Shown one piece after another: positions 3,919-41,467 of a stretch of DNA of 45,291 bases. The notes under the pieces are model-generated. The model was not told the origin of the DNA, searched no databases, and saw only the letters and a list, made by a program, of their open reading frames with translations. The stretch lies in IMG/VR virus record IMGVR_UViG_3300033150_001041, positions 1-45,291 of that record; one strand, given 5' to 3'. This DNA is from a virus. The stretch's first letter is position 1; every line of letters begins with the position of its first letter. Both the position numbers and the translations under genes were made by a program.

Positions 3919-4635
3919 GTGAACATCCCCGTGACGGGAACTAACGCTGATGCGGCGAACATCGCACGCGCAGCAGCCTACGCTCACGAACGCGATGGTC
4001 TCTCGCACATAAGTATCAACGGGGAGGCTTTCGACCTGATTGCGGGCGGTTGGTGCAGCAGATTCGCCCGCAAGGTTTGTGCTGCTGTCACAGGCATCGA
4101 ATGGCCGCCGTGGGCGGGACGATTTGCCGTGTGGACTGAGCGGAACCTGCACCAGCAGGACTTCGCGGTAGACGAGCCTGAGCCTGGCGATCTTGTGTGT
4201 TTCAATGCGCTGACCTACCATAAGTTCGGACGCCACGCGGTCTGGGGCTGGCCGGTGTGGAAGGTAAAGGTGAACGGTGCCGTTGGACACATCGGCGTCT
4301 TCCTCGGTGATGGCCTCTTCGCCGAAAACACTAGCAGTTCACGGGGACCCGGCACGGTCATCAGCGACCTCTCCCGCATGGCCTCCCGCATCAGCGGTTA
4401 CTACCGGCCCCTGCGGTCGGCGCGAGAGGCAAGCTTGCCCGAAACCGTGAAGGTCGTCCGGCTAGGCACGAACATGGTCACGGAGGCGCACCTGTCTGAC
4501 GGGCACTACCGCGTGACCGTACGCGACTGCGCCGACCTCACCGACTGCGAACTCGTGACAAAGCACCTGCGGGAGCAGCGGAAGCTGTACCTCTGGCCGC
4601 GAGCCTGGGGGCCGGTGCCACACTCAGACATGTAG
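3919..4635 (+). CDS. NlpC/P60 or CHAP-type cell-wall hydrolase (endolysin candidate)
   Basis: A 238-residue protein from GTG 3919, preceded by GAGAGGAGGG. The pattern W-C46-S-R-F near residue 46, P-G-D-L-V at 89-93, G-H124-I-G-V and a following E136-N137 is that of papain-like NlpC/P60 and CHAP peptidases, with C46 and H124 as likely catalytic residues. These cut peptidoglycan stem peptides or cross-bridges. Residues 165-238 form an extra C-terminal domain of unknown fold that may bind the wall. No signal peptide is visible, so export would depend on a holin. It follows the holin-like gene and fits an endolysin; a virion-associated hydrolase is the alternative. Confidence 0.65.
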   Translation: MNIPVTGTNADAANIARAAAYAHERDGLSHISINGEAFDLIAGGWCSRFARKVCAAVTGIEWPPWAGRFAVWTERNLHQQDFAVDEPEPGDLVCFNALTYHKFGRHAVWGWPVWKVKVNGAVGHIGVFLGDGLFAENTSSSRGPGTVISDLSRMASRISGYYRPLRSAREASLPETVKVVRLGTNMVTEAHLSDGHYRVTVRDCADLTDCELVTKHLREQRKLYLWPRAWGPVPHSDM

Positions 4636-4686
4636 CGCCGAATCTCACGGACGAGCCATTCTCCATTTCAGGGGAGGCCGCATATT

Positions 4687-4947
4687 ATGAGCAAGCTGCT
4701 AGCGAACATCCGCCGACTGGCAGGTAGCCGCACAAGCCGTCGCATCCAGGAGGCGTACAAGCTCCTGGCGGCGGGCAGGGCCTGTGGCTACATCGCCAGC
4801 CGCGCAGACTGGTCGCAGCACCGTATGGGTTGCGCGGAAGCCGCCCTCGGTGCATACGACCGCGCCCGCGAACAGGGCCTCGAAGAGCACGCTGCGGCGC
4901 TAGCTGCGGTACGGGCGGCCTGTCGGTTCATCGTGGAGCATCCCTGA
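4687..4947 (+). CDS. hypothetical protein, helical, alanine-rich
   Basis: An 86-residue basic protein with GGGGAGG 12 bases before ATG 4687. It is alanine- and arginine-rich and probably all helical, with two C-A/C-R pairs but no zinc motif. No family is recognised. It is the last gene of the first plus-strand unit: palindrome copy 1 begins 4 bp after its stop codon. Confidence 0.65.
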   Translation: MSKLLANIRRLAGSRTSRRIQEAYKLLAAGRACGYIASRADWSQHRMGCAEAALGAYDRAREQGLEEHAAALAAVRAACRFIVEHP

Positions 4948-4950
4948 AAT

Positions 4951-4966
4951 GTGGAACCGGTTCCAC
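4951..4966. repeat. 16-bp palindrome, copy 1 of 7
   Basis: GTGGAACCGGTTCCAC, a perfect dyad. Flanks are AAAT on the left and TATT on the right. It lies directly after the stop at 4945-4947 and separates the lysis-side unit from the winged-helix unit. Confidence 0.9.
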
Positions 4967-5089
4967 TATTAGTTTGGGGGCCGCCTAGTGGCTCGACGGA
5001 GCTAGAGCCGCCGGAGTATGCAGGGTGGGTGGGTGGACACAACTCCGGCGGGGGTGACGCCAGGCGCCCCCTGAATACTGCAAAAAGGC
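4967..5089. other. non-coding spacer with inverted repeats
   Basis: CCGCCGGAG (5008-5016) pairs with CTCCGGCGG (5043-5051), and GGGGGTG (5050-5056) pairs with CGCCCCC (5065-5071). Both stems are GC-rich but lack a following T-tract. They may end transcription of the upstream unit or insulate the promoter that follows. No gene is supported here. Confidence 0.45.
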
Positions 5090-5118
5090 TTGACTCGCTT
5101 GCTCCAGCAGGCTATACT
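5090..5118 (+). promoter_or_regulatory. sigma70-type promoter for the winged-helix genes
   Basis: TTGACT (5090-5095), a 17-bp spacer and TATACT (5113-5118). Transcription should start near 5125, giving a leader of about 130 bases before the ATG at 5258. Confidence 0.75.
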
Positions 5119-5126
5119 CCCCGCAA

Positions 5127-5231
5127 CGGTCAAGGAGTGAACCTCTTACTTTGTGTACCGACAACCGAATTGCCCACCCGAAGCGATGAGGCTCGCTCCT
5201 TGACCGGAAAGAACCTAAGCTTTGGGTGGGC
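5127..5231 (+). promoter_or_regulatory. structured 5' leader with two interleaved stems
   Basis: CGGTCAAGGAG (5127-5137) is complementary over 11 bases to 5196-5206. The 13 bases at 5172-5184 pair with 5219-5231, with one G-U. The two stems interleave, so they form either a pseudoknot or two alternative folds. The element ends 10 bases before the AAGGAGG of the gene at 5258, so control of translation or early termination is plausible. It matches no riboswitch class I recognise. Confidence 0.55.
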
Positions 5232-5257
5232 TTCATTTGTTAAGGAGGCAGACAACG

Positions 5258-5809
5258 ATGGATGATGAATACGTGGTGCGCGTGCCCTATGAATTGATAT
5301 TCGGCTTCCCCGACCTAAGTGACGAGGACAAAATAACATACATGGCTATTGCCATATCCGCAATGGGTTTCTCTATCGTCCAAGTTTCCCTCGAAGGACT
5401 TGCAGCAAAGCGATACATAGACATACAGACCGCTAGGCGGCACCTCGAAAAACTAGTGGCCGTTGGTCTCCTCATACCCCATGGGCACCCCAACGAAGAT
5501 ACTTTTGAGTATTACCTCCCATCTCGTGTATTCACGGGAGTAGAAGACAGTTGGGTCTACTTCATAGGCACAGACGACCACACCCGCATTAAGATAGGCT
5601 GTTCAACCGACCCCAAGCGACGCCGCACTCAATTGCAGTCGGGCAGGTCGAGCAGGCTGTCTATAATCGGAACTATAAGAGGGGGCGCGGTATTAGAGGC
5701 CGAAATGCACGAGAGGTTTAAGGCCCAACGGGTCAAGGGCGAGTGGTTCGCATGGGAAGGCGAACTCGCCGAGTTTGTCGCCAACAAGTTTGGAGAGAAG
5801 GGGCAATAG
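5258..5809 (+). CDS. winged-helix DNA-binding protein fused to a GIY-YIG (T5orf172/MUG113-like) domain
   Basis: A 183-residue protein. Residues 18-75 form a winged helix (L-S-D-E-D-K-I-T-Y, then R-R-H-L-E-K-L-V-A-V-G-L-L). Residues 99-175 have the GIY-YIG superfamily pattern of the T5orf172/MUG113 type: V-Y-F-I, I-K-I-G-C-S-T-D-P-K-R-R, E148 and H151, and G-E162-W-F. Such domains are nucleases or nuclease-like DNA binders. ATG 5258 is chosen because TTAAGGAGG precedes it; an in-frame ATG at 5222 does not have one. It is 1 bp overlapped with a paralogue of its own N-terminal domain. The role may be regulation, replication initiation or site-specific nicking. Confidence 0.75.
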   Translation: MDDEYVVRVPYELIFGFPDLSDEDKITYMAIAISAMGFSIVQVSLEGLAAKRYIDIQTARRHLEKLVAVGLLIPHGHPNEDTFEYYLPSRVFTGVEDSWVYFIGTDDHTRIKIGCSTDPKRRRTQLQSGRSSRLSIIGTIRGGAVLEAEMHERFKAQRVKGEWFAWEGELAEFVANKFGEKGQ

Positions 5810-6183
5810 TGTCAGAGGCCGTCCTCGACATCGTACCTGGAGACGCATTGATGGCGGCAGGATTCGTAAATCTATCAAACGCCTTCGCGTGGGGCTACCC
5901 CGAACTATCTGACGGGGATAAGATGACGTACGTTGCCCTTGCTAGGTTCACATACGGGCACGAGAGCACATTTGTCAGCCAGAAGATACTTGCCAAGGCT
6001 CGGCGAGTCTCCACAAGAACGATTCGTAGGCACCTCCGCAAGTTAGAGAAAGCAGGCCTTATCGAGGTCAAGAAGGGGAAGGGCCGCCGAACCAAGGCAG
6101 GAGGCCGAACCAATCTCTGCATCGTATATCAGACCTCAAAGGAAATGGCGATAGAGTATCTCAAGGAGTGGCGAGGATACTAA
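5809..6183 (+). CDS. winged-helix DNA-binding protein (replication initiator or regulator candidate)
   Basis: A 124-residue protein from GTG 5809, overlapping the previous TAG by one base, with GAGAAGGGG upstream. It repeats the neighbour's N-terminal domain: Y-P-E-L-S-D-G-D-K-M-T-Y-V-A-L-A, then S-T-R-T-I-R-R-H-L-R-K-L-E-K-A-G-L-I-E-V, a typical winged helix. The tail from about residue 86 is basic (K-K-G-K-G-R-R). Helix-turn-helix proteins of this kind often start phage replication or control transcription. The structured block immediately downstream (6222-6392) would suit an origin or operator bound by it. Confidence 0.7.
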   Translation: MSEAVLDIVPGDALMAAGFVNLSNAFAWGYPELSDGDKMTYVALARFTYGHESTFVSQKILAKARRVSTRTIRRHLRKLEKAGLIEVKKGKGRRTKAGGRTNLCIVYQTSKEMAIEYLKEWRGY

Positions 6184-6221
6184 CCGCCGCTTCTTCATAC
6201 CGCCGCGTCCGATACCTGTCA

Positions 6222-6273
6222 ATAGGACACAAACGTCCGAACGGTGCGGGACAACCGGACATCCGTGTCCTAT
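6222..6273. repeat. nested inverted repeat 1 of the structured block
   Basis: ATAGGACAC (6222-6230) pairs with GTGTCCTAT (6265-6273); inside, GTCCG (6235-6239) pairs with CGGAC (6256-6260). A stem with a symmetrical internal loop results. It begins 39 bp after the winged-helix gene stop. Confidence 0.65.
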
Positions 6274-6285
6274 AGAGGTACAAGT

Positions 6286-6340
6286 AGTTAACGACGTTAG
6301 GTACAAATAGAAGGCTAGACCTAGTACCTTACCGTTAACT
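6286..6340. repeat. nested inverted repeat 2 of the structured block
   Basis: AGTTAACG (6286-6293) pairs with CGTTAACT (6333-6340), and GTTAGGTAC (6296-6304) with GTACCTTAC (6324-6332). The result is a stem of about 17 bp with one mismatch and a 2-base bulge around a 19-base loop. Confidence 0.7.
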
Positions 6341-6344
6341 CTAG

Positions 6345-6392
6345 AGAGAAATCGGCCCGTCGGACAACCCAATGGGCGGGTAACCTTTCTCT
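6345..6392. repeat. nested inverted repeat 3 of the structured block
   Basis: AGAGAAA (6345-6351) pairs with TTTCTCT (6386-6392); CCCG (6356-6359) can pair with CGGG (6377-6380) inside. This is weaker than the first two. Three consecutive dyads in 171 bp suggest an origin or structured RNA. Confidence 0.5.
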
Positions 6393-6409
6393 GATTCTTG
6401 GGAGTGACC

Positions 6410-6438
6410 TTGCAACCCTACCCACGATGTGCTATGGT
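6410..6438 (+). promoter_or_regulatory. sigma70-type promoter
   Basis: TTGCAA (6410-6415), a 17-bp spacer and TATGGT (6433-6438). The transcript would begin near 6445 and run through palindrome copy 2 towards the glycosyltransferase gene. Confidence 0.55.
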
Positions 6439-6467
6439 ACGCAGTAGCGAGGGAGGCCGAGAAGACG

Positions 6468-6620
6468 ATGTGGGAGCCTCTGGCCGAAACCAACAAAGCG
6501 CGGCTTGTCCCAGCCGCCGCCTCCCTACGCCGCCGGAGGCTCCCGCCACTAATAGTGGACCCGGTTCCACTATTGGCTTGGACACAAAATGTTCACGCTG
6601 AGGCGAATAGAAGCCCGTAG
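6468..6620 (+). CDS. possible 50-residue protein, doubtful
   Basis: An ATG at 6468 follows GGGAGG by about 13 bases and reads M-W-E-P-L-A-E-T-N-K, then an arginine- and proline-rich stretch with no recognisable features. Palindrome copy 2 would lie inside the frame, which is unlike every other copy, so the frame is probably not a gene. Confidence 0.2.
   Translation: MWEPLAETNKARLVPAAASLRRRRLPPLIVDPVPLLAWTQNVHAEANRSP
6555..6570. repeat. 16-bp palindrome, copy 2 of 7 (one mismatch)
   Basis: GTGGACCCGGTTCCAC differs from the consensus at one base, so the dyad is imperfect. AATA and TATT arms flank it symmetrically. It lies between the winged-helix unit and the glycosyltransferase-methyltransferase unit. 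Confidence 0.85.
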
Positions 6621-6703
6621 AGGGTAGGGGAACATCCCCGATAGGATTAGGTCGCAAAGAGCATTCTCTTCGCAGGAAGGTGCCTTAATTCGCCGAGAAT
6701 CGG

Positions 6704-6717
6704 TATTCTGGTATTAT
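6704..6717 (+). promoter_or_regulatory. extended -10 promoter before the glycosyltransferase gene
   Basis: TGG-TATTAT, with the hexamer at 6712-6717, is an extended -10. The best -35 at 17 bp, TTCGCC (6689-6694), is poor. A second possible -10, TATTCT (6704-6709), follows TGCCTT by 17 bp and resembles the site at 20456. Transcription from either would start just before the gene. Confidence 0.4.
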
Positions 6718-6751
6718 AGCAGACTAGCAGGTTGGGAGGATGCACGAGGCG

Positions 6752-7786
6752 ATGCGTTCAGCAGCAAGGTTTCAAGGGCCGGTAACGGGCTTCACGGGCT
6801 ACGGTAAGCTCTTCGCCTGGCTCGTGAAGCGGCTGAAGCGCATGAGAGGCATTTCCCTAGAAGTGACGGCGCATAGGGGTAGAATATCGCCAAGCGCGCC
6901 GGACGAACTAGTGCAGTCACTTGCCCGCAAGGCAGACCACAGGTATCTTGGCCTGCTGCTGGCAACCCCCGACGAGACGCACCTCATTCCCACAGTCCGC
7001 AGGGTTCACCTCACGATGTGGGAAACGACCAGGCTCCCCAACATTGCCATTCAAGGCCTCAATGCGAACGCTACGGAGGCCTGGGTGACGAGTGACTTCT
7101 GCCTGTCGGTATTCCGAGACTGTCTCACGGTGCCGGTGAGGAAGGTGGGGTGTGGCGTGGACAGTAGCTTATTCACGCTCGGCGACCTGCGTGACCGCAA
7201 CAAGCTCACCTTCGGGACTATGGGCGTGATGTCGCGGAGAAAGGGCGTGGACGTGCTGCTGCGGGCTTGGGGCGCATCGCTGGCGGATAAGGAAGACGCT
7301 CGCCTCCTCATCAAGACGCGGGACACTAGGTGGCTTCCGCCGGAGGCTACTGTCTTTCCGAACGTGCAGGTGTTTGAGGGCGACTGGGAGCACGAGAAGG
7401 TCGTGCAGTTCTATCAAGCACTCGACTACTTCGTGCTGCCTACTCGTGGTGAAGGCTACGGGTTATGTCCGATAGAGGCAGCCTGCTGTGGGACGCCTGG
7501 CTTCGTGACGCGCTGGTCGGGGCCGGTAGACTATCTTTCGCGGTACATACAGCCCATCGAGGTACTGGGGCTGTATGGTATTCCCGAAGGCGGGGCCATA
7601 GAGAGGTCGGGGCAATGGGCGGAACCTAATGCTGACCATCTGGTGTTCATCCTCAGGGATTGCTACGAGAGGGGCGGCCCCACGGAGGAGGAACGGCGGC
7701 TGACCTCCAGGTGGGCGAGGGGGAACTGGGATATTCAGCCTATGGCGGAGGCGATAGCCCAAGGGTTGAGGAGGCTATCGCGGTGA
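6752..7786 (+). CDS. glycosyltransferase, GT-B fold (GT4-like)
   Basis: A protein of 344 residues with the family-4 C-terminal nucleotide-sugar site: the G-R/K-G motif region F-G-T-M-G-V-M-S-R-R-K-G-V-D-V-L-L and, near residue 233, E-G-Y-G-L-C-P-I-E-A-A-C-C-G-T-P-G. It would transfer a sugar from a nucleotide donor to an unknown acceptor. ATG 6752 is preferred because GGGAGG ends 12 bases before it; ATG 6740 directly abuts that site. The gene overlaps the methyltransferase start by GTGA, so the two are coupled. It could glycosylate modified DNA bases, virion proteins or host surface polymers. Confidence 0.8.
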   Translation: MRSAARFQGPVTGFTGYGKLFAWLVKRLKRMRGISLEVTAHRGRISPSAPDELVQSLARKADHRYLGLLLATPDETHLIPTVRRVHLTMWETTRLPNIAIQGLNANATEAWVTSDFCLSVFRDCLTVPVRKVGCGVDSSLFTLGDLRDRNKLTFGTMGVMSRRKGVDVLLRAWGASLADKEDARLLIKTRDTRWLPPEATVFPNVQVFEGDWEHEKVVQFYQALDYFVLPTRGEGYGLCPIEAACCGTPGFVTRWSGPVDYLSRYIQPIEVLGLYGIPEGGAIERSGQWAEPNADHLVFILRDCYERGGPTEEERRLTSRWARGNWDIQPMAEAIAQGLRRLSR

Positions 7787-8712
7787 GACCCTATTGGAGC
7801 GACGAGAGGCACGGCCTAGAGATATACCACGGGGACTGCTTGGAGGTCATGCCGGAGCTTGAGCGGGAGTTCGACCTGTGCCTGACTGACCCGCCGTACG
7901 GCAAGGGCAAGGGTTTTGCTGGGGAGGGGCTACAGCACGATGATTGGTATGCTCTTATCCAACGTGCGGTACAGGAGGCGTACGGTGTAAGCGACTGCCT
8001 ACTGTCGTTCTGGCCTACGGTCGGCCTCCGAGATGCTATGACAATCCTTCCAGAAGACCCTCGCGTCATTGTCTGGAATAAGACCAACCAATATACAGCA
8101 GTCTCGTCGCGGGGCTTCCTCTACACTTGGACACCTCTCTGCCTGTGGGGTCAGTCTCGCATGATGCAAGCGCGTCAAGCGCACAGAGAGGCTGTTGGTC
8201 GGGAACTCAAGCGGGTTCGTTTGGCAAAAGGTCTCACGACTTCTTCTGCGCTACAGGCAATCGGGCGGCCCGCCACTGGGCTTTGGTCGAACTGGGAACA
8301 CGGGCTTATGGTGCCCAACCAGCACGACCGCAAGGCTATTGAGCGACTAATGGGACAGACTTTTGATTTCCTTCCGCCTGGGGCAAAGCAAGATGCACTA
8401 TATCCCGATGTGTTCTCTGGCCCGGTAGTGATTCCCGACTCGAATGAGGACACGGCACATCCTACCCAGAAACCCCTCTGGTTGCTTCTGCGACTCATTA
8501 GAGCAATCGGGGGTGACCGCTTGCTCGACCCCTTCCTCGGCTCCGGCACTACCCTCGTCGCCTGCTACCGCCTTGGACGGTGGGGCATCGGCATAGAGAT
8601 AAGCGAACAGTACTGTGAGTTGGCCGCCAAACGCCTTGAGCGGGAAATCGCCCAGGGCCGCTTGTGGGAGCCAGCGGAGTTGGACACAGTAGACGATAGG
8701 AGGCTGCTCTGA
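7783..8712 (+). CDS. DNA methyltransferase, N4-cytosine/N6-adenine type, with an inserted HTH
   Basis: A 309-residue S-adenosylmethionine-dependent DNA methyltransferase. The catalytic D-P-P-Y (36-39) precedes the cofactor motif D-P-F-L-G-S-G-T-T (249-257), the beta-type order, and H-P-T-Q-K-P is at 226-231. DPPY predicts amino-group methylation of A or C. The target-recognition region between them contains, at about 135-185, an XRE-like helix-turn-helix (R-E-L-K-R-V-R-L-A-K-G-L). GTG 7783 overlaps the previous stop. No cognate restriction enzyme is adjacent, so it is probably an orphan enzyme for host-restriction evasion or gene control. The stop codon abuts palindrome copy 3. Confidence 0.85.
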   Translation: MRPYWSDERHGLEIYHGDCLEVMPELEREFDLCLTDPPYGKGKGFAGEGLQHDDWYALIQRAVQEAYGVSDCLLSFWPTVGLRDAMTILPEDPRVIVWNKTNQYTAVSSRGFLYTWTPLCLWGQSRMMQARQAHREAVGRELKRVRLAKGLTTSSALQAIGRPATGLWSNWEHGLMVPNQHDRKAIERLMGQTFDFLPPGAKQDALYPDVFSGPVVIPDSNEDTAHPTQKPLWLLLRLIRAIGGDRLLDPFLGSGTTLVACYRLGRWGIGIEISEQYCELAAKRLEREIAQGRLWEPAELDTVDDRRLL

Positions 8713-8715
8713 ATA

Positions 8716-8731
8716 GTGGAACCGGTTCCAC
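8716..8731. repeat. 16-bp palindrome, copy 3 of 7
   Basis: An exact GTGGAACCGGTTCCAC with AATA and TATT arms, giving a 24-bp perfect dyad at 8712-8735. It starts at the last base of the methyltransferase stop codon and lies 13 bp before a -35 element. Confidence 0.9.
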
Positions 8732-8744
8732 TATTCGGGGGTGC

Positions 8745-8773
8745 TTGCGCGACTGCAACGAATATGCTACCAT
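8745..8773 (+). promoter_or_regulatory. sigma70-type promoter for the connector and tail genes
   Basis: TTGCGC (8745-8750), a 17-bp spacer and TACCAT (8768-8773). Moderate match. It sits between palindrome copy 3 and the first head-tail gene. Confidence 0.45.
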
Positions 8774-8790
8774 TCGTGCGGTGAGGAACC

Positions 8791-9456
8791 TTGACCTCTT
8801 CGGAGTTACTGAACAACCTGCGGAACAGAGGTATCAGCGCGACGCAGATGTCGGATGCCGTGGCGACAGCATTGTTAGATGATGTCCTGCGCACCTACAA
8901 TCACTATCGCCCGCAGATGGACTATGCAACGCTGACTACCGTGGCTTATCAGACGAAGTATGATGCCGATAGCAGCTTGCTACGAGTGGTGGACGTGTAT
9001 TGGGAACCCTCTGGCACCTCCGATGTGGTATCTACAATCCTCAGCGAACTTGCGGTGCTCAAGGAAGACTTCGACTACCCCTCCATCTCCAAGATATACT
9101 ACACGAAGCGGCACCGACTGCGAGACGTAACGCATGGGAGATGGCGATGGGACGGAACACAGATATGGCTTATCCCCACGCCGACTACTTCAGATGACAT
9201 AGTGCCCTACGTCTTCACCAAGGCCTTCACATCCATCTCCGCCGTGCCCACAGCAGACGAGGAACTCTTGGTGATGCTCTTCGAGGCCCTCGCGTTGCGC
9301 TACATAGCGAACACTCAAGCGGGTGAGGGAGGTTGGCGGGCAGGAAGTTACAGCGTTGATGGGGCAACGATTCGGGAGGAACGAAGGGATGCTAACCTAG
9401 CATATCAGCGTGTCTGCGCCTTGCTGGGCGGCGGCGGCGTAGTAAAGCGAGACTGA
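8791..9456 (+). CDS. head-tail connector (adaptor) protein candidate
   Basis: A 221-residue protein from TTG 8791, with GTGAGG upstream. It opens with an acidic helical stretch and has a central beta-rich part (W-R-W-D-G-T-Q-I-W-L-I-P) and a helical end (E-E-L-L-V-M-L-F-E-A-L-A-L-R-Y-I-A). This, plus its place as the first of four small genes before the tail tube gene, fits an HK97 gp6 or SPP1 gp15-like connector that binds the portal. The family assignment is from pattern and synteny only. Confidence 0.5.
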   Translation: MTSSELLNNLRNRGISATQMSDAVATALLDDVLRTYNHYRPQMDYATLTTVAYQTKYDADSSLLRVVDVYWEPSGTSDVVSTILSELAVLKEDFDYPSISKIYYTKRHRLRDVTHGRWRWDGTQIWLIPTPTTSDDIVPYVFTKAFTSISAVPTADEELLVMLFEALALRYIANTQAGEGGWRAGSYSVDGATIREERRDANLAYQRVCALLGGGGVVKRD

Positions 9457-31799: not shown

Positions 31800-31834
31800 G
31801 CGGGGTATGATAGGAATGCGTGGGGTAGGCAATA

Positions 31835-31850
31835 GTGGAACCGGTTCCAC
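31835..31850. repeat. 16-bp palindrome, copy 6 of 7
   Basis: An exact core with arms AATA and AATC. It is 35 bp after a stop and 6 bp before the AGGAGG of the next gene. A possible -10, TATGAT at 31806, lies upstream. Confidence 0.9.
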
Positions 31851-31870
31851 AATCTTCAGGAGGCAAGCAG

Positions 31871-33400: not shown

Positions 33401-34945
33401 CTACGTTAGGTCTGTGCCAGCAGTACCGGAGTCAATCGTCACCAGCCCGAAGAAGTCGCCGTCCACAAGATAGGTGGCGTACCGAGTGTTCACCGACCGG
33501 CTGGCGATGTTGGTGCTCGTGTTGTAGCTGCTCGGCGAGACATAGACCGGAACATACGGTGCGTAGATGTAGGCCGTGTCATTCCAGTCCTGGCCCTTAT
33601 AGCCAAGCATTATCGTGTCCGTGGTGAACCAGCCGACGGAGTACACGCGCCAGCGGTTAGAAAGAACACCCTCATACGTTACATCAATACCGAAGGTATT
33701 CTGCTCGTCTGGCGCAGCCGCCACGAAGTTATTAAGCGCCGAGAAACGAGACGCTGCAATCGGGTCACACACAAGCCAGTTGGGGCGTCGGTACTTCTTG
33801 CTGGCAATCTCCCCGCCTGCGCGGGAAATGAACTCTGCCAGCACTTCGCGCCACTCTCGGCCCGTGTAGTTCGAGCCAGACGGTATGGCGGTGCCAAAGG
33901 TCATCGAGGACCCAGAGGCATTGCTTCGCATATCCTCAAGGATGGTGTAGTTAACCTCGCGGGCGATTTCGTTAGCCGCAATGTTAAGCAACTCCTCTTC
34001 GGCATTCAGACCGTGATACGCTGCAATGTCCTGCTGGAGCACGGAGGTCCACTTCGCTTCAATTGACTTCTCCGTGGCGCTAATAGACGCCTCGGTGATA
34101 GAGAGGCCCACCCGCGCCTTAGCCGCCTCCTCCGTGTGGTCAGCATACGTGCTATCGAAGTTGGCACTCTGGTCAAGCCGACTGTCGCTTGGCTTGGCCA
34201 ATGGATTCAGGAAGAATACCTTGCCGTCCGGCCTATCAATCGGCTGCACGGAGCAAAGTTCTTGAGCAATGAGCCTCGGGAACGTCCTGCGGAATAGCGG
34301 CAAGATGTACGGCGCGCCAACGGCTATGTCTGAACTTGTGGTCGCCTCCACGAGACTCTGGTGGCGGGCAAAGCCCTCGCGGGTCAGAACGTTGATGTAG
34401 TATGGATGCTCCTTCTGATAGTTCTCAATTATCCGACGGAAGCACCATACGGGGTTCGTGGGATTGTCCTCGCCCGTATCCCTCATACCGTCGGCTACGA
34501 GACCCTCAACAAGTTGATTGACTACCTCGGCGGGAGTCTCAGGCAACGGTCGGCGCTCTGAGGCAAGCAGTTCGGTTTCGTCGTCGGCGTGTACCTGAAT
34601 ACCAACACCGGCCTTCGCCTTAATCTCGGCAGCCTCCTTCATAGGCGCATAGAGCACCTCGAAGGTCTTGTCAATGTCCTCGACGCTTGTGCATTTCGTG
34701 AGGGCACTCTCCAAGCGGCTGCGCAGTTCTGCTGGAAGTGCCGCGACCTCTTCAGCGGCAATCTTCTCCTCAACATGGGCGGAGAGGGCTTCCCTCTGCG
34801 CACGCAAGGCCTCTTCCTGCTCCAGCTTCTCAAGGCGAGCCTTGAGTTCGGCGGTATCTTCTGGAACAGCCTGTGGCGGCTTCTCCTCTACAACCTTCTC
34901 TACGGTCTCCTTAATAACGTCTTCTTGGCCCTTCTGAGTAGCCAT
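33401..34945 (-). CDS. scaffold - major capsid protein from an internal in-frame start
   Basis: Within the 953-codon frame, codon 440 is an ATG at 34945-34943 preceded on the minus strand by AAAAGGAGG with a 5-base gap, one of the best ribosome binding sites in the window. It would give a 514-residue product: coiled-coil scaffold (about 120 residues) then the gp23-like capsid domain. Expressing the abundant capsid subunit this way while the full frame yields a few protease-bearing copies parallels lambda C and Nu3, where the scaffold starts inside the protease gene. Cleavage at the scaffold boundary by the protease is expected. Confidence 0.75.
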   Translation of the reverse strand: MATQKGQEDVIKETVEKVVEEKPPQAVPEDTAELKARLEKLEQEEALRAQREALSAHVEEKIAAEEVAALPAELRSRLESALTKCTSVEDIDKTFEVLYAPMKEAAEIKAKAGVGIQVHADDETELLASERRPLPETPAEVVNQLVEGLVADGMRDTGEDNPTNPVWCFRRIIENYQKEHPYYINVLTREGFARHQSLVEATTSSDIAVGAPYILPLFRRTFPRLIAQELCSVQPIDRPDGKVFFLNPLAKPSDSRLDQSANFDSTYADHTEEAAKARVGLSITEASISATEKSIEAKWTSVLQQDIAAYHGLNAEEELLNIAANEIAREVNYTILEDMRSNASGSSMTFGTAIPSGSNYTGREWREVLAEFISRAGGEIASKKYRRPNWLVCDPIAASRFSALNNFVAAAPDEQNTFGIDVTYEGVLSNRWRVYSVGWFTTDTIMLGYKGQDWNDTAYIYAPYVPVYVSPSSYNTSTNIASRSVNTRYATYLVDGDFFGLVTIDSGTAGTDLT

Positions 34946-36262
34946 CGTATCCTCCTTTTGCGACTCTTGAACGTTCGGTTCCGTCTGTGCTGTCTGCTCC
35001 TCAGGTTGTATGACCTGAATGCTGGTGTCAGGGGCTGCGCCCTCAAACACCGAGTCTATCGCAGCCAGCACATAGTCGTCCTGAACGACTTCTACCTCCT
35101 CGCCGTTCTCCCACTCCTCCTTCTCCACCGAACCGAACCCTCGCGTGCTCCACTCGACGCCTACTCCGGCCCGAATAAGCTGCTTCAGGTTCTCGCCAGA
35201 TGCGGTATTCAGCACCTTCGCCTTATACCGCATCCGGTCTCTGTCCTGCCAGATGTCGGTGAACAGTACGCTAATCTTGCCGAGGTCAGTCCCAGGCGAG
35301 AACCACCCTGGGTGGCCCTCCATTCCGATTAGCTTCCCGTTCATGAGCATAGCCTCGATGTGGTCTTCATTGGCTTCCCACACGCTTTGAGGATACACCC
35401 GACCGTTGGCAGTAAGAATGTTGACGCGAGCAAACGTACCCGTGATGGGGACTTCTCCCTCCCCCACGGTAGCGCCCTCGTCAATCTGCGGCTTGTCATT
35501 GGCGTACGCGTCCTCGATAACATCAAGGCCTTGCTCTTCCGCAAGTGAGCGTAGCCTATGGTCGGCTTGTTCAAGTACCTTGCGCCAAGCGTCCTGCTCT
35601 ATCCCCTCCGTACCTTCTAGGGCAATGAATGCTTCGCTCTCGGCCCTCATAGCATCGGCGATGGTAGCAGCCTCGCTAATCGCTGCCTGGGCGGCCTCTA
35701 TGCTCTCCGCGCCCATGCCTGCATTCTTCTTGGCCCAACGCTTGAGCGATGGATTCAGGAGCCTATCGAGGGGACTAGCTGTATTGTACTTGTGCTTGAT
35801 GCCATTGCTCCTCGCGGCGGCTATAATGCGATTCCAGACAACCCTCCGCGAGGCGGTCTTCTTATACTGCTTATAGTTTTTCGCCATGTAAGTGATGGCA
35901 GCCCTGACGTGTGAGGCATCTATCGGGTAAAGCCAGTTCACAGGGTCGCCGAAATCATTGTCCGCGATATTCTTGTACTCTCCAGGTTTCGTGAGATGGC
36001 CCTGGGGCAGAACCTCAATGCCATACCTGCGGCTCCTGGCGTCCCGCGCCTTGCGCAGAGCCTCACGTTCCTTGTCCGTGTATTCCGTGTATTCTCGGAG
36101 CCAGTCGGCGTAGGGGCAGGTTTCGTCCTCGGAGAGTTCATGGAAATGAGGACATTGCTCCGTGGCATTCAGCACGTCATCAGCTAGGGCTTCGTCGGGG
36201 GGGTAGCCGAGAGCCTCAGCAATGCAAGCATCAGTACCCGCGTTTTCACACTGGCGAGCCAT
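33401..36262 (-). CDS. prohead protease - scaffold - major capsid polyprotein (full-length frame)
   Basis: A 953-residue frame from ATG 36262. Residues 1-180 are an N-terminal domain (W-L-Y-P-I-D-A-S-H-V-R-A-A-I) often seen before phage proteases. Residues 270-405 match T4 gp21-type prohead proteases: N-G-R-V-Y-P (286-291), H317 in E-G-H-P, and S372-T-R-G-F-G, giving a His-Ser pair. Residues 445-560 are a charged coiled coil, suiting a scaffold. Residues 575-953 resemble T4 gp23-type HK97-fold capsid proteins, with the W-T-S-V-L-Q-Q-D-I-A-A-Y-H-G-L-N-A-E-E-E helix. No stop separates the parts. An internal start at 34945 probably makes the capsid part alone. A promoter lies at 36318-36346. Confidence 0.85.
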   Translation of the reverse strand: MARQCENAGTDACIAEALGYPPDEALADDVLNATEQCPHFHELSEDETCPYADWLREYTEYTDKEREALRKARDARSRRYGIEVLPQGHLTKPGEYKNIADNDFGDPVNWLYPIDASHVRAAITYMAKNYKQYKKTASRRVVWNRIIAAARSNGIKHKYNTASPLDRLLNPSLKRWAKKNAGMGAESIEAAQAAISEAATIADAMRAESEAFIALEGTEGIEQDAWRKVLEQADHRLRSLAEEQGLDVIEDAYANDKPQIDEGATVGEGEVPITGTFARVNILTANGRVYPQSVWEANEDHIEAMLMNGKLIGMEGHPGWFSPGTDLGKISVLFTDIWQDRDRMRYKAKVLNTASGENLKQLIRAGVGVEWSTRGFGSVEKEEWENGEEVEVVQDDYVLAAIDSVFEGAAPDTSIQVIQPEEQTAQTEPNVQESQKEDTMATQKGQEDVIKETVEKVVEEKPPQAVPEDTAELKARLEKLEQEEALRAQREALSAHVEEKIAAEEVAALPAELRSRLESALTKCTSVEDIDKTFEVLYAPMKEAAEIKAKAGVGIQVHADDETELLASERRPLPETPAEVVNQLVEGLVADGMRDTGEDNPTNPVWCFRRIIENYQKEHPYYINVLTREGFARHQSLVEATTSSDIAVGAPYILPLFRRTFPRLIAQELCSVQPIDRPDGKVFFLNPLAKPSDSRLDQSANFDSTYADHTEEAAKARVGLSITEASISATEKSIEAKWTSVLQQDIAAYHGLNAEEELLNIAANEIAREVNYTILEDMRSNASGSSMTFGTAIPSGSNYTGREWREVLAEFISRAGGEIASKKYRRPNWLVCDPIAASRFSALNNFVAAAPDEQNTFGIDVTYEGVLSNRWRVYSVGWFTTDTIMLGYKGQDWNDTAYIYAPYVPVYVSPSSYNTSTNIASRSVNTRYATYLVDGDFFGLVTIDSGTAGTDLT

Positions 36263-36298
36263 TCAAGTCGCATCCTCTGAGCCTCCCAAGGCCTAATG

Positions 36299-36325
36299 GT
36301 TACTACCACTACACGATATAGTAAC
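36299..36325. promoter_or_regulatory. inverted repeat over the capsid promoter -10 region
   Basis: GTTACTA (36299-36305) and TAGTAAC (36319-36325) are separated by 13 bases and cover the -10 and expected start of the minus-strand promoter, an operator-like arrangement. Confidence 0.4.
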
Positions 36326-36346
36326 AAACATGCGCTGGGCTGTCAA
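36318..36346 (-). promoter_or_regulatory. strong sigma70-type promoter for the capsid frame
   Basis: On the minus strand, TTGACA (36346-36341), a 17-bp spacer and TACTAT (36323-36318). It lies 55 bp before the ATG at 36262 and overlaps the end of the ChaB-like gene, so the capsid frame can be transcribed apart from the terminase-portal genes. Confidence 0.7.
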
Positions 36347-36783
36347 GCAACCTCTGAGTCGTCTAGGCTATCCCAAGCAGGATGCTTCAATCCCCGCGCT
36401 TGTAGCATCCGCACAACTGTCTGGTGCATATCGGCGGCCTTGTCCATATCCTGCGAACAATCTTCATGCAGAGCGTTGTGGAGAGCAACGAGGGCAGCCG
36501 TACTGAGTTGGTGCAAGTCATCTTGGTTCTTGCTATCTCGCTTGACCCACTTGCCGTTGGCAGACCTATGCCAGCCCATCTTCTTCAACTGCGCATTGGC
36601 GGTAGCAAAGGCCAGACTCTCGGCGTCCTTAGCGGACTTGCCCTTGGACAGGTAATGCTTGTATGAGTTGTTCCATGTCTTGACCCACGCCCGCTTTGCC
36701 GAAGTCGGCAATCCCTTCAGCCTGTCGGGTAGGTTTTTCAGCGTATAGGGTTCGCCAAGCTCAACTGGCGTCTCGTTCGACAA
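36343..36783 (-). CDS. ChaB-like domain protein
   Basis: A protein of 146 residues if started at TTG 36783, which has GAGGAGG 9 bases upstream. Residues 18-82 match the ChaB pattern: L-P-D-R-L-K-G-L-P-T-S-A-K-R-A-W-V-K, N-x-x-Y-K-H-Y and G-x-W-V-K-R. ChaB-type domains occur in phage head regions beside protease and portal genes; their role there is unsettled. The second half is helical and may mediate protein contacts. It overlaps the upstream gene by 23 bases. A longer frame to ATG 36876 is open but lacks a ribosome binding site. Confidence 0.65.
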   Translation of the reverse strand: MSNETPVELGEPYTLKNLPDRLKGLPTSAKRAWVKTWNNSYKHYLSKGKSAKDAESLAFATANAQLKKMGWHRSANGKWVKRDSKNQDDLHQLSTAALVALHNALHEDCSQDMDKAADMHQTVVRMLQARGLKHPAWDSLDDSEVA

Positions 36784-37516
36784 CTGTCCAGCCCTCCTCG
36801 AAGTAACCGCCGAATGCGGGCCTGCCCACGCTAGTTTCCCAAGGCTTCTCGGTAGTTTCGTCCTCTGCCAGAACATGGGCCACTCTGCCAGTATTGTTCG
36901 GCCATTCTATCCTATCAAGAAGCTCCATGCGCGAGACCGTGGGCAGTTCGTGTGCGGCCATGTTATCCCAACGCAAGACATCTGTAACTGCAACCGCATC
37001 AATGCCAGCGGCAAGCACGGCATCGAAGATAGCACTATCTACCTCGTCAATGCCCGCCAGGGCGAGAAACAACGCGGAGGCGTTCCTTGTTTCCTCGTTG
37101 CCCTCAACATCCCGCACCACAATCTTGCCGGTAAGGGCTTCACCCACATAGTCGAAGACCCTGACCGTGTTGCCCTTCTTGTGTATCTGAATGCGTCTGC
37201 CAGTTAGAAGCGGCTGCAACACCAGCGGGTAAGAAGGCTCACCCTCACGGGTAGCCCTTGGCGGTTCATGAAACTCGTTCAGGGGCAAGACATCGGGCAT
37301 GGCAACCTCTGCTGCCACTATGGGCCGTAGTACTACCTCGTATCGTGGCAAGTAGGGCGCTATGCCTATGAACTCCTGTGGAGGTGCGTCCTCGTCTGTC
37401 CTCTCAAGGGCCGCCCAAGCCTCGCTTATAGGGTCGCTTTCAAAGAAGAGGTTGGGTTCCCCCGTCTCCATTGTGTCTATGCGGGTCAGGACAATCTCCT
37501 CATCAATCTGGCGCAT
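36761..37516 (-). CDS. catalytically dead ATP-dependent DNA ligase-like protein
   Basis: A 251-residue protein from ATG 37516, preceded by AGGAGG. Residues 95-205 follow the nucleotidyltransferase core of ATP-dependent DNA ligases: L-L-T-G-R-R-I-Q-I-H-K-K-G (103-115) where K-x-D-G-x-R is expected, I-F-D-A-V-L (163-168) at the D-G-E motif, V-T-D-V-L-R-W-D-N (177-185) at the F-D-x-L motif and L-P-T-V-S-R-M-E-L-L after it. The adenylated lysine and the D of motif I are missing, so it should not ligate. Between portal and protease genes, it is more likely a structural head component built on a ligase fold. This reading is by eye. Confidence 0.55.
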   Translation of the reverse strand: MRQIDEEIVLTRIDTMETGEPNLFFESDPISEAWAALERTDEDAPPQEFIGIAPYLPRYEVVLRPIVAAEVAMPDVLPLNEFHEPPRATREGEPSYPLVLQPLLTGRRIQIHKKGNTVRVFDYVGEALTGKIVVRDVEGNEETRNASALFLALAGIDEVDSAIFDAVLAAGIDAVAVTDVLRWDNMAAHELPTVSRMELLDRIEWPNNTGRVAHVLAEDETTEKPWETSVGRPAFGGYFEEGWTVVERDAS

Positions 37517-38954
37517 CGTTATCGCCTCCTGGCACGGGTGTGGCAGTAGCTTGGGCCTGTTGCTTTTGCATGGCATCAGCAATCTCCTCAGGAGTGAGAC
37601 GCAGTACCTTCTGCCAGATAACCTCATCGGGGAGGTTGACGTTGCGCCAGTTGCTTGCGGTCTGCGCTCGCTGGAGTTCGATGTTGGCCTCCCTCTCCTC
37701 CGCACGTACTGCGATTGGTGGCATAACGATAGAGTACTCTCCCTCTGGGCTTGCAGGATTAATGCCGTTCAGGATTAACTCCAGGTCGAAGATGCGCTTA
37801 AGGCCCATCTTTACAGCACGCTGTACGTGACGCAAGGTGCGCCCAAACTGTTCATCGCGTTCCTTGTCGCCCGTGCCTACAAATGTCCTCCTGCCAATGT
37901 CATAGTTCAAGAGTTTGGCTGGCACCTTGAGCGTACACAATATCCGGTTGAGGCTCCTATCAAGGTCATCCAGCCGCGTGATATGAGGATTGCTGCCGCC
38001 GATAGCTTCGACTTGACCATCTGCCACTACCCTACCTTGCGGGTCATACAACTTGGGCAGGAAGATGTCCGTGTAGACATCCGGCGGATTAGGCTGGCTG
38101 CTGAAGGTCGTAGCAGAATGACTGGTATCCCAGCCTCCCAACTGCTCCCTCTTCATGCTTCCTACATAGGTGTCTATCGCAGCCATCTGCTCTTGTGGCG
38201 TAGAACCATTAGGCACCGGAACGTGATGCACAAGCGTCTCGTATGCCCTAATAAGTCGCGCCATTGCTACAGAGTCCTCTGCCATCTGAAGGCGTTGCCA
38301 GTTCCTGCGTTCCCTAGAGAGCATGGCCTTGGCGTATGTTCGGCCCTCAAACGCGCCATAGGCCAGATGAACTATCTGCCAAGCGTAGAAACAAGCCACC
38401 AACGTATTGTCAACTATCTGGTCGTAGGGAGCTTCCCCCCGTACCTTCCGGCGGAAGGCATCAACGGGGTCGCCCGACTTCAGGTTACCATAGGCATCAA
38501 CGTTCTTATGTATCTGGTAGCTGTGCGGGAATTGCTTGATGCGTTCAATCCTTTTGTCCTCGCCCAAGACGGGTTCAAGGAAGTGATTGCCCTTCTTTAC
38601 CATTGTCCGCACGATGTCCCACGTCTGTGTCGCCAAGCCCGTTCGGGTTACCATTGCCCCCAACGTCTCCACAGCCATAGAATGGCCCTCTATGAGGAAG
38701 TCCCTGTCTTCCTGGGGGTCTATGAAGGTCGTCGCACAGTCAGCTATCACGTCTAGCGCAGTAGAGACTACGCCATCCTCGTTGTCCATGCGGTCAATGA
38801 TATTCTCTTCGTCCTTGCGCGTGTTAGAGATTGACAGCCACGGAAGCGTATCTAGGAACCTGCTACTATGAGTGACACCTGTATCTGTAGCGGGTTTCCT
38901 AGAGCGGGCTACCTGTCTCCAGAGGCGTTGTGCCCAAGTCGTCAGCCTGTTCAT
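37503..38954 (-). CDS. portal protein (T4 gp20-like)
   Basis: A 483-residue protein if started at ATG 38954 (an upstream in-frame ATG at 39008 lies inside the terminase gene). It has portal features: N-I-I-D-R-M-D-N-E-D-G-V-V-S-T-A-L-D-V-I near the start, then alternating helices and the N-R-I-L-C-T-L-K-V-P-A-K-L-L-N-Y-D-I-G stretch typical of gp20-type portals, followed by an acidic tail. Twelve copies would form the DNA entry vertex. It overlaps the large terminase gene by 56 bases and the ligase-like gene by 14. Head proteins from portal to capsid all resemble the T4 lineage. Confidence 0.8.
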   Translation of the reverse strand: MNRLTTWAQRLWRQVARSRKPATDTGVTHSSRFLDTLPWLSISNTRKDEENIIDRMDNEDGVVSTALDVIADCATTFIDPQEDRDFLIEGHSMAVETLGAMVTRTGLATQTWDIVRTMVKKGNHFLEPVLGEDKRIERIKQFPHSYQIHKNVDAYGNLKSGDPVDAFRRKVRGEAPYDQIVDNTLVACFYAWQIVHLAYGAFEGRTYAKAMLSRERRNWQRLQMAEDSVAMARLIRAYETLVHHVPVPNGSTPQEQMAAIDTYVGSMKREQLGGWDTSHSATTFSSQPNPPDVYTDIFLPKLYDPQGRVVADGQVEAIGGSNPHITRLDDLDRSLNRILCTLKVPAKLLNYDIGRRTFVGTGDKERDEQFGRTLRHVQRAVKMGLKRIFDLELILNGINPASPEGEYSIVMPPIAVRAEEREANIELQRAQTASNWRNVNLPDEVIWQKVLRLTPEEIADAMQKQQAQATATPVPGGDNDAPD

Positions 38955-40497
38955 GTTCTTCTTGCGCCTTTCTTGCAGAAGCCGTCTTCGGGAACGCCGC
39001 CCACGCATCGAACACCTCGCGGCTTACGCCCGTGCCTTTAGCGGCAGCGTCAGCAAGCCACATCGCCATCACGGTATCATTGTAGTCACCAACGGGGTAT
39101 GTTATCATTTCCTCTATCCAACTGCAAACGGGGCAGCTATGCGTAACACCCTCGTGGTCTCCCGCGAAGGGGATAACCCACCCCCCATTGTCTACCTGCG
39201 CGGCTAATCCTGGCACCCCCATATTCAAATCGTGCTTCTTGGCGCCTGTATAGAAACCTCTCACGGGGATAGACTTGCTCATCTCCTCAAGCATCTCCAC
39301 AATGACCTGCTGGAAAGCATTGTTCTCTACCATGACTAACTGGGGCTTGTGGCGCTCGTAGGCCTCATATATCAAACTAGCCGCGTCTAGCGCCCTCATC
39401 TGCCGCCGGATTATGTCCACTACATGTCGGCGGCCCTCCTCGTCCACAGCAATAACGAAGACCACCGTGTAGTTACCGCCACCCGCCGTCCTCGCCAAGT
39501 CAACACCTATGTAGCGGGGCCACGTAGGGTCTATGCCCTCGCCGAGATATAGGTCGCGCCGCTTGCACTTCTCTATGCCCTCGAACGAGAAAACGCGCTC
39601 ATTCTCAAGGAACATCTGAAGGAGATACTGCTGATTGAATGCCCTATCGTTTGCTATCTCCTGCCGCCTATTCTCAAGGGCAGCTATTGACCATACCTCA
39701 GGCCAGATGGCCTCGCCATTGAAGATAGCGGGGCGCTTCCAGACATTCCAACCCTTCTGCTTTTCTAAGGTGCAGGTGAGGTCATTCTCTGTCCACGGTG
39801 TCGCGATGTAGACAATACGACCATCGGGAAGAAGCGTGTTCAGCCAAGCATCGCGGTACTGCGCCCGCACGTGTGTTTGCAATGCGGGTTGGAATATGGC
39901 ATTCTTGGGCGTCACTACATCGTCGAAGACAAGCAGGTTCGACCGCCCGCTTACGCCCGACGCGAGAATGGCACCAGCTTCTACCGTCGGGTCTTTAGAG
40001 TGCGACTCTCTCTCCACGTAGAGACGATGCGTCTTCCATGACCTGAATGTGTGGGGCTTGAGGCTGGGGAAGACATTCCTCACCCGTGGGTTGTCTGTGA
40101 TGTGCTCTCCTATCGAGGATACTAGGGCAGAAGCGTATTCGTCTTTGCCCATGACGACCTTGACCAGCAACTCGTGATTGCGCCCTATCTCCCATATCAC
40201 TCTCCCGATAGACATCTGTTCTGTCTTGCCGTGGCCTCTAGGTGCGATTATCAAGGTGCGCGAAGGGCCTTGAAGCGGAACTAAGCCTTGCCACTCTCTG
40301 TGTATCTGGCCTTGCTGGAAGAAGTTGCCACTACCGTCAAAGAAGCAGTACTCCATGAAGGCATTAACGTCTTCCTGGGCTTTCCTGATGCGTATGCGCT
40401 CCTGCGCCTCCTCAATGTGGCGCATCTCCTCCGCTATCGCATCAGGCGACGCCCTCATGCGCTTCTTCCGTAGGTGGCTTGCTATGTCTGTAGCCAC
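38899..40497 (-). CDS. terL: large terminase subunit
   Basis: A 532-residue packaging motor. GTG 40497 is used because it overlaps the upstream TAG and follows GAGGCGGG. Walker A is A-P-R-G-H-G-K-T (85-92) and Walker B L-L-V-F-D-D (188-193), followed by T-P-W-T-E-N as coupling motif. The RNase-H-like nuclease has Y-I-G-V-D-L-A near 335, V-M-V-E-N-N-A near 385 and D-Y-N-D-T-V-M-A near 487, supplying the acidic triad. It cuts and pumps concatemeric DNA through the portal. The packaging strategy cannot be deduced from this alone. Confidence 0.92.
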   Translation of the reverse strand: MATDIASHLRKKRMRASPDAIAEEMRHIEEAQERIRIRKAQEDVNAFMEYCFFDGSGNFFQQGQIHREWQGLVPLQGPSRTLIIAPRGHGKTEQMSIGRVIWEIGRNHELLVKVVMGKDEYASALVSSIGEHITDNPRVRNVFPSLKPHTFRSWKTHRLYVERESHSKDPTVEAGAILASGVSGRSNLLVFDDVVTPKNAIFQPALQTHVRAQYRDAWLNTLLPDGRIVYIATPWTENDLTCTLEKQKGWNVWKRPAIFNGEAIWPEVWSIAALENRRQEIANDRAFNQQYLLQMFLENERVFSFEGIEKCKRRDLYLGEGIDPTWPRYIGVDLARTAGGGNYTVVFVIAVDEEGRRHVVDIIRRQMRALDAASLIYEAYERHKPQLVMVENNAFQQVIVEMLEEMSKSIPVRGFYTGAKKHDLNMGVPGLAAQVDNGGWVIPFAGDHEGVTHSCPVCSWIEEMITYPVGDYNDTVMAMWLADAAAKGTGVSREVFDAWAAFPKTASARKAQEEHEQADDLGTTPLETGSPL

Positions 40498-40817
40498 TAG
40501 AATGCCCGCCTCAGATATATGCCCCAAGTGTCTTCGTCCACGTAGCCCACGCCGAACCGTATCTTCCGTCGCGTGATGCCAGCATCCGCCCCGAACCCAG
40601 GCTGATAGTATGGCCTCAGCACTGTCGCATAGGCACCCCAATCGTTAACGCTGAATGCCTGCCAACTTAGTGTCGCCAACCCACGCTCGTCCTCGTTGAC
40701 CGCAGGCACCACAAACAGGCTTATGCCATATTCGTCGGGCAACAAGGCGTCCCAGTCGTCTGACGCATCGGCAGGAGCCACCACCATCGCGAGCACAACA
40801 ACTCCCAGTACCACCAT
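40497..40817 (-). CDS. secreted small protein in the terminase operon, with an in-frame amber upstream
   Basis: From ATG 40817 a 106-residue protein with a signal-like start (L-G-V-V-V-L-A-M-V-V-A-P-A-D-A) and a beta-rich body ending G-I-Y-L-R-R-A-F. That ATG has no ribosome binding site. In the same frame, ATG 40868 has GGAGGAGG 7-8 bases upstream, overlaps the TerS stop, and reads M-M-L-K-V-D-T-G-L-S-I, then TAG (40835-40833), then F-W-L-L-V before ATG 40817. The longer version would have a normal basic signal-peptide start. The gene may need amber readthrough, or carry a mutation. Function unknown. Confidence 0.5.
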   Translation of the reverse strand: MVVLGVVVLAMVVAPADASDDWDALLPDEYGISLFVVPAVNEDERGLATLSWQAFSVNDWGAYATVLRPYYQPGFGADAGITRRKIRFGVGYVDEDTWGIYLRRAF

Positions 40818-40864
40818 AACTAGCAGCCAGAACTAGATACTCAGCCCTGTATCTACCTTCAGCA

Positions 40865-41467
40865 TCATTGTTCGGCCTCCTCCGTGAACTCTGCATCTAT
40901 TGCATTCCTGGCACTACCAAGCGACGCAATCTCCTCGCGCATCGTCTCCAGCTTGCTTGCCATTTCCTCCAGTTTCTCTGGCGGCAATGCGTTTATCGTA
41001 TCCACGTAGATATTCGTCTGTGTCGCCGACATGTCGCCTTGGCCTTCGCACTCGGCTTGGGCTACGCTTAGTGTCTTCAATAGCGTCCTGCCAAGACGCT
41101 CCAGGCCGCTGGCGGGTTCGCTTATCACCCCTAGCTTGAACCTGTCGAGCAAGTCTAATGCCATCTCGTTGAGGAGGCGCAGGCGGTAGGCCTTATGCAC
41201 TATCGGTATGTGGCCTATCTCCCGTGAGAGACTCTCAACCTTCTCGGCTATCTGTGCCGCATGTGTCTCGCGTAGCCTGCGTATGGGCGTGGTCGTACGC
41301 GGGCCGCCGAAATACTCCTCGCATAGCTGCTGTATCTGCACGTCAGAGTGCCCAGCGGCCACCATGCCGATGACGAAGTTGGCAATGGGGCTAGTCATCT
41401 TGCCTTGCCACTCCACCTGTGGCACGTTGGCGGGACGCTCGCCCTCACCTAACTCAGCTAACACCAT
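40865..41467 (-). CDS. small terminase subunit candidate
   Basis: A 200-residue helical protein upstream of the large terminase. The N-terminal part has a helix-turn-helix-like stretch (V-A-A-G-H-S-D-V-Q-I-Q-Q-L-C, then I-R-R-L-R-E-T-H-A-A-Q-I), the central part is a coiled-coil oligomerisation region and the end is acidic (F-T-E-E-A-E-Q). This is the usual build of small terminases, which recognise phage DNA and regulate TerL. No strict family motif is present. It overlaps the upstream gene by 14 bases. Confidence 0.65.
   Translation of the reverse strand: MVLAELGEGERPANVPQVEWQGKMTSPIANFVIGMVAAGHSDVQIQQLCEEYFGGPRTTTPIRRLRETHAAQIAEKVESLSREIGHIPIVHKAYRLRLLNEMALDLLDRFKLGVISEPASGLERLGRTLLKTLSVAQAECEGQGDMSATQTNIYVDTINALPPEKLEEMASKLETMREEIASLGSARNAIDAEFTEEAEQ

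Follow-up and report, generated by a model that had tools for sequence, protein, structure and literature searches.

The window analysed here, a stretch of 45,291 nucleotides, is a virus record of 45.3 kb (IMGVR_UViG_3300033150_001041) in which tail, capsid/protease, portal and terminase genes are present. The features considered lie between two winged-helix genes and a glycosyltransferase (GT) gene, and a sequence-only reading had interpreted the dyads among them as a replication origin or structured RNA. The motif named in the list is one built from a related phage, as described below.

5258–5809, plus strand: ORF1, a winged helix paralogous to ORF2, plus a GIY-YIG (MUG113/T5orf172) nuclease domain
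5809–6183, plus strand: ORF2, a lone winged helix (HTH_36) of 124 aa
6219–6276, no strand assigned: dyad 1, arms 6219–6239 and 6256–6276, 81% complementary
6278–6293, minus strand: motif match in the left arm of dyad 2, 18.1 bits, the highest score anywhere in the 45-kb window
6286–6301, plus strand: second motif match, 12.9 bits, overlapping the match at 6278–6293
6286–6340, no strand assigned: dyad 2, outer arms AGTTAACG/CGTTAACT, inner arms AGGTAC/GTACCT
6343–6392, no strand assigned: dyad 3, outer arms AGAGAGA/TTTCTCT, inner stem G+C-rich
6410–6438, plus strand: promoter-like pair TTGCAA-17-TATGGT, weak (8/12, below the tool cut-off)
6450–6546, plus strand: GT leader with interleaved stems A (6450–6457/6519–6526) and B (6470–6484/6532–6546), a candidate pseudoknot
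6551–6574, no strand assigned: one of seven copies of a palindrome
6740–7786, plus strand: GT gene, the first of the downstream block, encoding a glycosyltransferase 46–47% identical to that of the related phage

Inverted repeats were confirmed at 6219–6276, 6286–6340 and 6343–6392, the place where the sequence-only reading had put three stems. They do not follow one another without gaps, as had been stated, being about 9–12 nt and 3–4 nt apart, and the gene-free stretch, previously given as 171 bp, amounts in the ORF table to 556 bp without a main gene (6184–6739). The 18-bp core of dyad 1 (from 6222 onwards) contains three internal mismatches, read from the sequence, each of which is A.C on the plus strand and G.U on the minus strand. 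In dyad 2, 6286–6293 pairs with 6333–6340 on the outside, and 6296–6304 with 6324–6332 nested within. Repeats here are two-copy only, for example AGGTACAARTAG at 6276 and 6299, and a search of the dyad stretch for a tandem array found none. Measured against 300 dinucleotide shuffles per element, the fold z on the plus and minus strands was −2.8 and −5.1 for dyad 1, −1.9 and −2.1 for dyad 2, and −2.2 and −1.1 for dyad 3. The stretch 6222–6392 as a whole gave a z of about −3 to −3.7 (plus) and about −4 (minus), a stability matched by none of the 300 shuffles on either strand. In a genome-wide fold scan (397 scanning windows on both strands, 794 values, 25 shuffles each), this stretch ranked 5th (minus) and 17th (plus) among the 794 strand-windows, 17 of which reached z ≤ −3, several of them inside genes. 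With flanks added (6184–6420), z was only −1.4/−2.1; that of the whole region 6184–6740 was −4.4, indicating that its second half is structured at least as much as its first. The dyads are real and modestly more stable than chance, at about the 1–2% level, and are not unique.

The two proteins encoded just upstream had been described as being of initiator type, a description in need of correction. Each carries a winged helix (41% identity over 66 aa between that of ORF1 and ORF2), which in ORF1 is joined to a GIY-YIG nuclease and in ORF2 stands alone. The best match of ORF2 to PHROG initiator families (3.5e-9) is confined to the winged helix, which is generic, also matching transcription regulators, LexA and ribosomal protein S19e. 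The protein ends after this domain, and no match to a helicase-loading part was obtained. On this sequence similarity, ORF2 is possibly of initiator type. A single-sequence structure model of ORF2 was set aside (mean pLDDT 37.8). Elsewhere in the window, a single 953-aa frame at 33401–36262 (minus strand) combines head-maturation protease and major capsid domains.

The queries used in looking for relatives were ORF2, ORF1, GT, terminase, a capsid alignment, the palindrome and a gapped GT-leader pattern. The identical phage is present as two IMG/VR contigs of one sample, the first with 100% identity over the stretches fetched near the dyad region and the second with 99–100% identity over those fetched from the remainder; their ends extend about 2.0 kb and about 2.5 kb past the window, with no junction between them. 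The sole true relative found in the collections searched is IMGVR_UViG_3300033148_007023 (27.5 kb; hereafter G001, with coordinates prefixed L027 and L028), whose aligned proteins show 46–55% identity to those of the window. The G001 contig stops short of the region equivalent to ORF1/ORF2, and the conclusions drawn here depend on this one relative. ORF2 gave no matches as a query against the genome contig collection or by tblastn against phage records, and neither did the 24-bp palindrome against the genome contig collection, while the capsid alignment returned eight weak capsid-domain matches. Other versions of the dyads were sought as well, and only the identical copies of the same phage were seen, with none in phage records or G001. 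A contig of the viral contig collection (L014) was rejected as a relative; it contains the palindrome core, but no protein detectably common with the window.

In G001, a repeat cluster at L027:3640–3795 comprises eight TTAAC-centred sites in units of about 19 bp. It stands between a leftward block, whose last gene encodes a radical SAM protein, and a rightward block in the order cluster, 224-aa gene, Mom-like gene, endolysin, holin, terminase, portal, capsid, tRNA, GT and tail, where terminase, portal and capsid were assigned by alignment to the window. The Mom-like DNA modification gene lies at L027:4668–5471, and the tRNA, tRNA-Met(CAT) with its CCA end encoded in the sequence, at L028:3779–3852 between capsid and GT. 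A motif was built solely from the eight TTAAC-anchored units of the cluster. Beyond the two overlapping matches listed above, all motif matches in the window score 9.7 bits or less, and the 14 best do not include the right arm of dyad 2. Shuffling reached the top score of 18.1 bits 3 times in 300 for the window and 7 times in 5000 for the dyad stretch, and 4 of 500 column-permuted motifs had their best match in the dyad stretch. The dyad stretch and the cluster have eight 8-mers in common, a number reached by none of the 251 window tiles of 180 nt, and no tile equals the dyad stretch in 7-, 8- or 9-mers in common with the cluster. GTTAAC occurs four times in the window, two copies being the arms of dyad 2, and three times in G001, always within the cluster. 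When the cluster was aligned to the window, the dyad region came first among 600 tile-strands (33 vs 30); in the reverse search of the dyads against G001, three tiles scored slightly better than the cluster (35, 34 and 34 vs 33). The dyads had been aligned to two G001 regions four ways before one alignment stood out (1 of 300 shuffles), and the probabilities carry no correction for this. The common motif is absent from dyads 1 and 3. The core motif of a putative operator is found at the corresponding place in the relative, for this one relative, and the evidence, drawn from sequence comparison, for a DNA site common to the window and G001 is fair, not firm.

The element at 6450–6546, which starts about 60 nt downstream of the dyads, is a stronger RNA candidate than the dyads themselves. 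Among 1066 interleaved stem pairs on the plus strand of the window, the two best are 5127–5231 (score 69) and 6450–6546 (61), and the best of 383 such pairs on the plus strand of G001 (59) lies at L028:4257–4359, in the leader upstream of the orthologous GT gene, with the same stem geometry; in 12 shuffle controls, the best scores were 50–65, two of them above 61. The geometry common to both GT leaders is an 8-bp stem A, a gap of 12/14, a 15-bp stem B, a gap of 34/40, A', a gap of 5/3 and B', with a hairpin just before A' in both. Their sequence similarity is weak (14 of 1000 shuffles were as good; best among 364 tile-strands), and the GTs of the two phages are only 47% identical. The leader is a candidate regulatory RNA in two diverged phages that matched no Rfam family, with putative co-formation of stems A and B, and is a more interesting lead than the dyads. 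A gapped leader pattern was derived from the two known leaders, so its recovery of those two proves nothing; three new matches in the viral contig collection (L041, L042 and L044) have no matching interleaved stems and fit the number expected by chance. A self-cleaving HDV-like ribozyme was also rejected for 6450–6546: a strict descriptor gave no matches in W2, W1 or G1, a relaxed one gave one match in W2 and none in G1, and the element lacks the minimal HDV-like combination of a 7-bp P1, a short J1/2 and a P2 joined directly to P3. A short frame from an ATG at 6469, with SD-like GGGAGG, was spotted by eye.

The other high-scoring leader lies in 5090–5258, where TTGACT-17-TATACT is followed by the leader directly before the Shine-Dalgarno sequence of ORF1. 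Its interleaved stems of 14 and 13 bp are 5127–5140/5193–5206 and 5172–5184/5219–5231, the fold z of 5125–5236 is −5.3, and the arm CTCCTTGAC can alternatively pair near the Shine-Dalgarno sequence. In G001 (L028:4257–4390), GGCCTCC has two possible partners, stem A and the GGAGGCC found at the Shine-Dalgarno sequence of GT, an alternative pairing that is possibly a translational switch. A further recurrent element is the palindrome AATAGTGGAACCGGTTCCACTATT, of which seven 24-bp copies with 0–3 mismatches (0 expected) occur at 4947, 6551, 8712, 20400, 27395, 31831 and 41795, between or at the ends of main genes. None was seen in G001 or in the end extensions of the same phage. It looks like a dispersed operator.

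What do the dyads do? The origin proposed for them by the sequence-only reading, in which ORF2 or another phage protein would bind the dyads and open the DNA to the replisome and the cluster of roughly 19-bp repeats in G001 would be the equivalent origin, is unlikely. It draws on the winged-helix gene adjoining the dyads, with its PHROG initiator matches over that domain, and on the motif common with G001 repeats spaced at 19 bp beside the cumulative GC-skew minimum of that contig (3801). However, skew in the window turns at about 33 kb and 41.5–42 kb, with gene direction, and not at 6.2 kb, and the dyad stretch has neither an iteron array, its repeats being two-copy only, nor a marked A+T-rich element (A+T 0.38–0.58 across 6200–6400 in 50-nt steps). 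ORF2 has no helicase-loading part beyond its winged helix, and the neighbours of the G001 cluster are the radical SAM gene and the 224-aa gene rather than a winged-helix gene. A skew check had been proposed for relatives as well as for the window; the G001 minimum does fall beside the cluster, but divergent transcription explains this switch equally well. The origin claim does not stand on present evidence. The cluster in G001, at the skew minimum, is itself a candidate origin or operator array.

Nor does a role as RNA appear probable for the dyads, whether as a structured 3' untranslated region or as a small RNA that would protect the winged-helix mRNA end or separate operons. A fold z of −3 to −4 over 171 nt, at a position about 36 nt past the stop codon of ORF2 and ahead of the following block, would suit such a role, but the strand signals conflict: 4 further G.U pairs form in dyad 1 on the minus strand and dyad 3 folds better on the plus strand, opposite preferences that are not expected of a single transcribed RNA. 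There is no T-run terminator on the plus strand at the dyads, no minus-strand promoter-like site was found in 4600–9000, Rfam gave nothing at gathering score and otherwise chance-level matches only, and the IMG/VR copy of this phage matches the dyads with 100% identity, leaving no second sequence variant for covariation. An RNA function of the dyads themselves is unlikely. That they have no function, being inverted repeats arisen by chance in a long stretch of non-coding DNA where gene blocks were joined by rearrangement, is improbable. Strand-windows of z ≤ −3 do include coding ones, the low z with flanks added points the same way, and the block order, which differs between the window and G001, would in that case mark the junction as rearranged; against this stand the motif match as an independent finding (7 of 5000 shuffles) and the occurrence of three dyads consecutively. 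The dyads are probably DNA control sites.

Our preferred interpretation, held tentatively and at somewhat less than even confidence, is that the dyads serve as DNA sites in a region controlling the GT-tail block, where a phage protein binds dyad 2 and sets transcript level or timing. The control region would be flanked by two rightward units, the operon that closes with the winged-helix gene and, after it, the glycosyltransferase-tail block. A DNA-binding protein of the phage, for which ORF2 would be the obvious candidate, would bind dyad 2 through its core AGTTAAC, reading inward from both arms, and possibly the neighbouring dyads. Bound shortly before the point where the GT-tail transcript starts, it would set level or timing, with the promoter-like pair at 6410–6438 presumably in use and regulation possibly in either direction; a promoter-like score of at least 9/12 is reached at 22 plus-strand places in the window. 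In G001, the genes from the cluster to the tail are all rightward, in a block that holds head, GT and tail genes, so that the motif stands upstream of the GT-tail block in both phages. A lysis-head block separates the cluster from the GT gene in G001; in the window, the dyads with the common motif directly precede the GT leader and the head block lies elsewhere. This arrangement would fit a junction that brought together the two elements controlling one rightward block. The window head block (33401–41467) is opposite in orientation to the GT-tail block (6740–32840), and the two have the same orientation in G001. Inversion at inverted repeats was rejected as the origin of the difference in block order: no inverted repeat of at least 18 nt joins 6.2–6.7 kb to 33 kb among the 25 longest pairs covered, in which only dispersed palindromes paired across (6552–6578 with 31827–31853).

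If the dyads do control the GT-tail block, they provide an orphan winged-helix protein of the phage with a concrete candidate binding site; a single further member of this lineage was found in the collections searched. A broader possibility, which we regard as doubtful, is that 6184–6740 forms a compound switch in which dyads bound by a phage protein would feed a promoter, with a pseudoknotted leader at the start of its transcript; this RNA would belong to a class absent from Rfam, be conserved in topology and geometry before the GT of two phages and be reused at 5127–5231 before the winged-helix/GIY-YIG operon; as part of that same doubtful proposal, the phage lineage would be undescribed.

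How does the region compare with known systems? Iteron-type phage origins are exemplified by lambda O and its relatives, with their O-protein/origin complexes. As in these origins, a DNA-binding gene lies beside repeats here, and the relative G001 has a short repeat array; unlike in these origins, the window has no iteron array or A+T-rich element, its repeats lie after rather than inside the candidate gene, and no skew switch occurs. Phage operator clusters upstream of promoters are closer in that short-core inverted repeats stand upstream of an operon, with the core also in repeats upstream of the corresponding block of the relative, but here the binding protein, the promoter and the effect are all putative. 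The leader at 6450–6546 resembles the minimal HDV-like (theta) ribozymes of phages (PMC10879173) in its order A, B, hairpin, A', B', its lack of P4 and its occurrence in a tailed phage, and differs from them in its long A–B and B–hairpin linkers and its 15-bp B stem. The dispersed palindromes resemble mycobacteriophage stoperators in having many copies of one site across one phage genome; stoperators are 13-bp sites mostly oriented with transcription (PMC6550527), whereas the sites here are 24-bp palindromes and hence without orientation.
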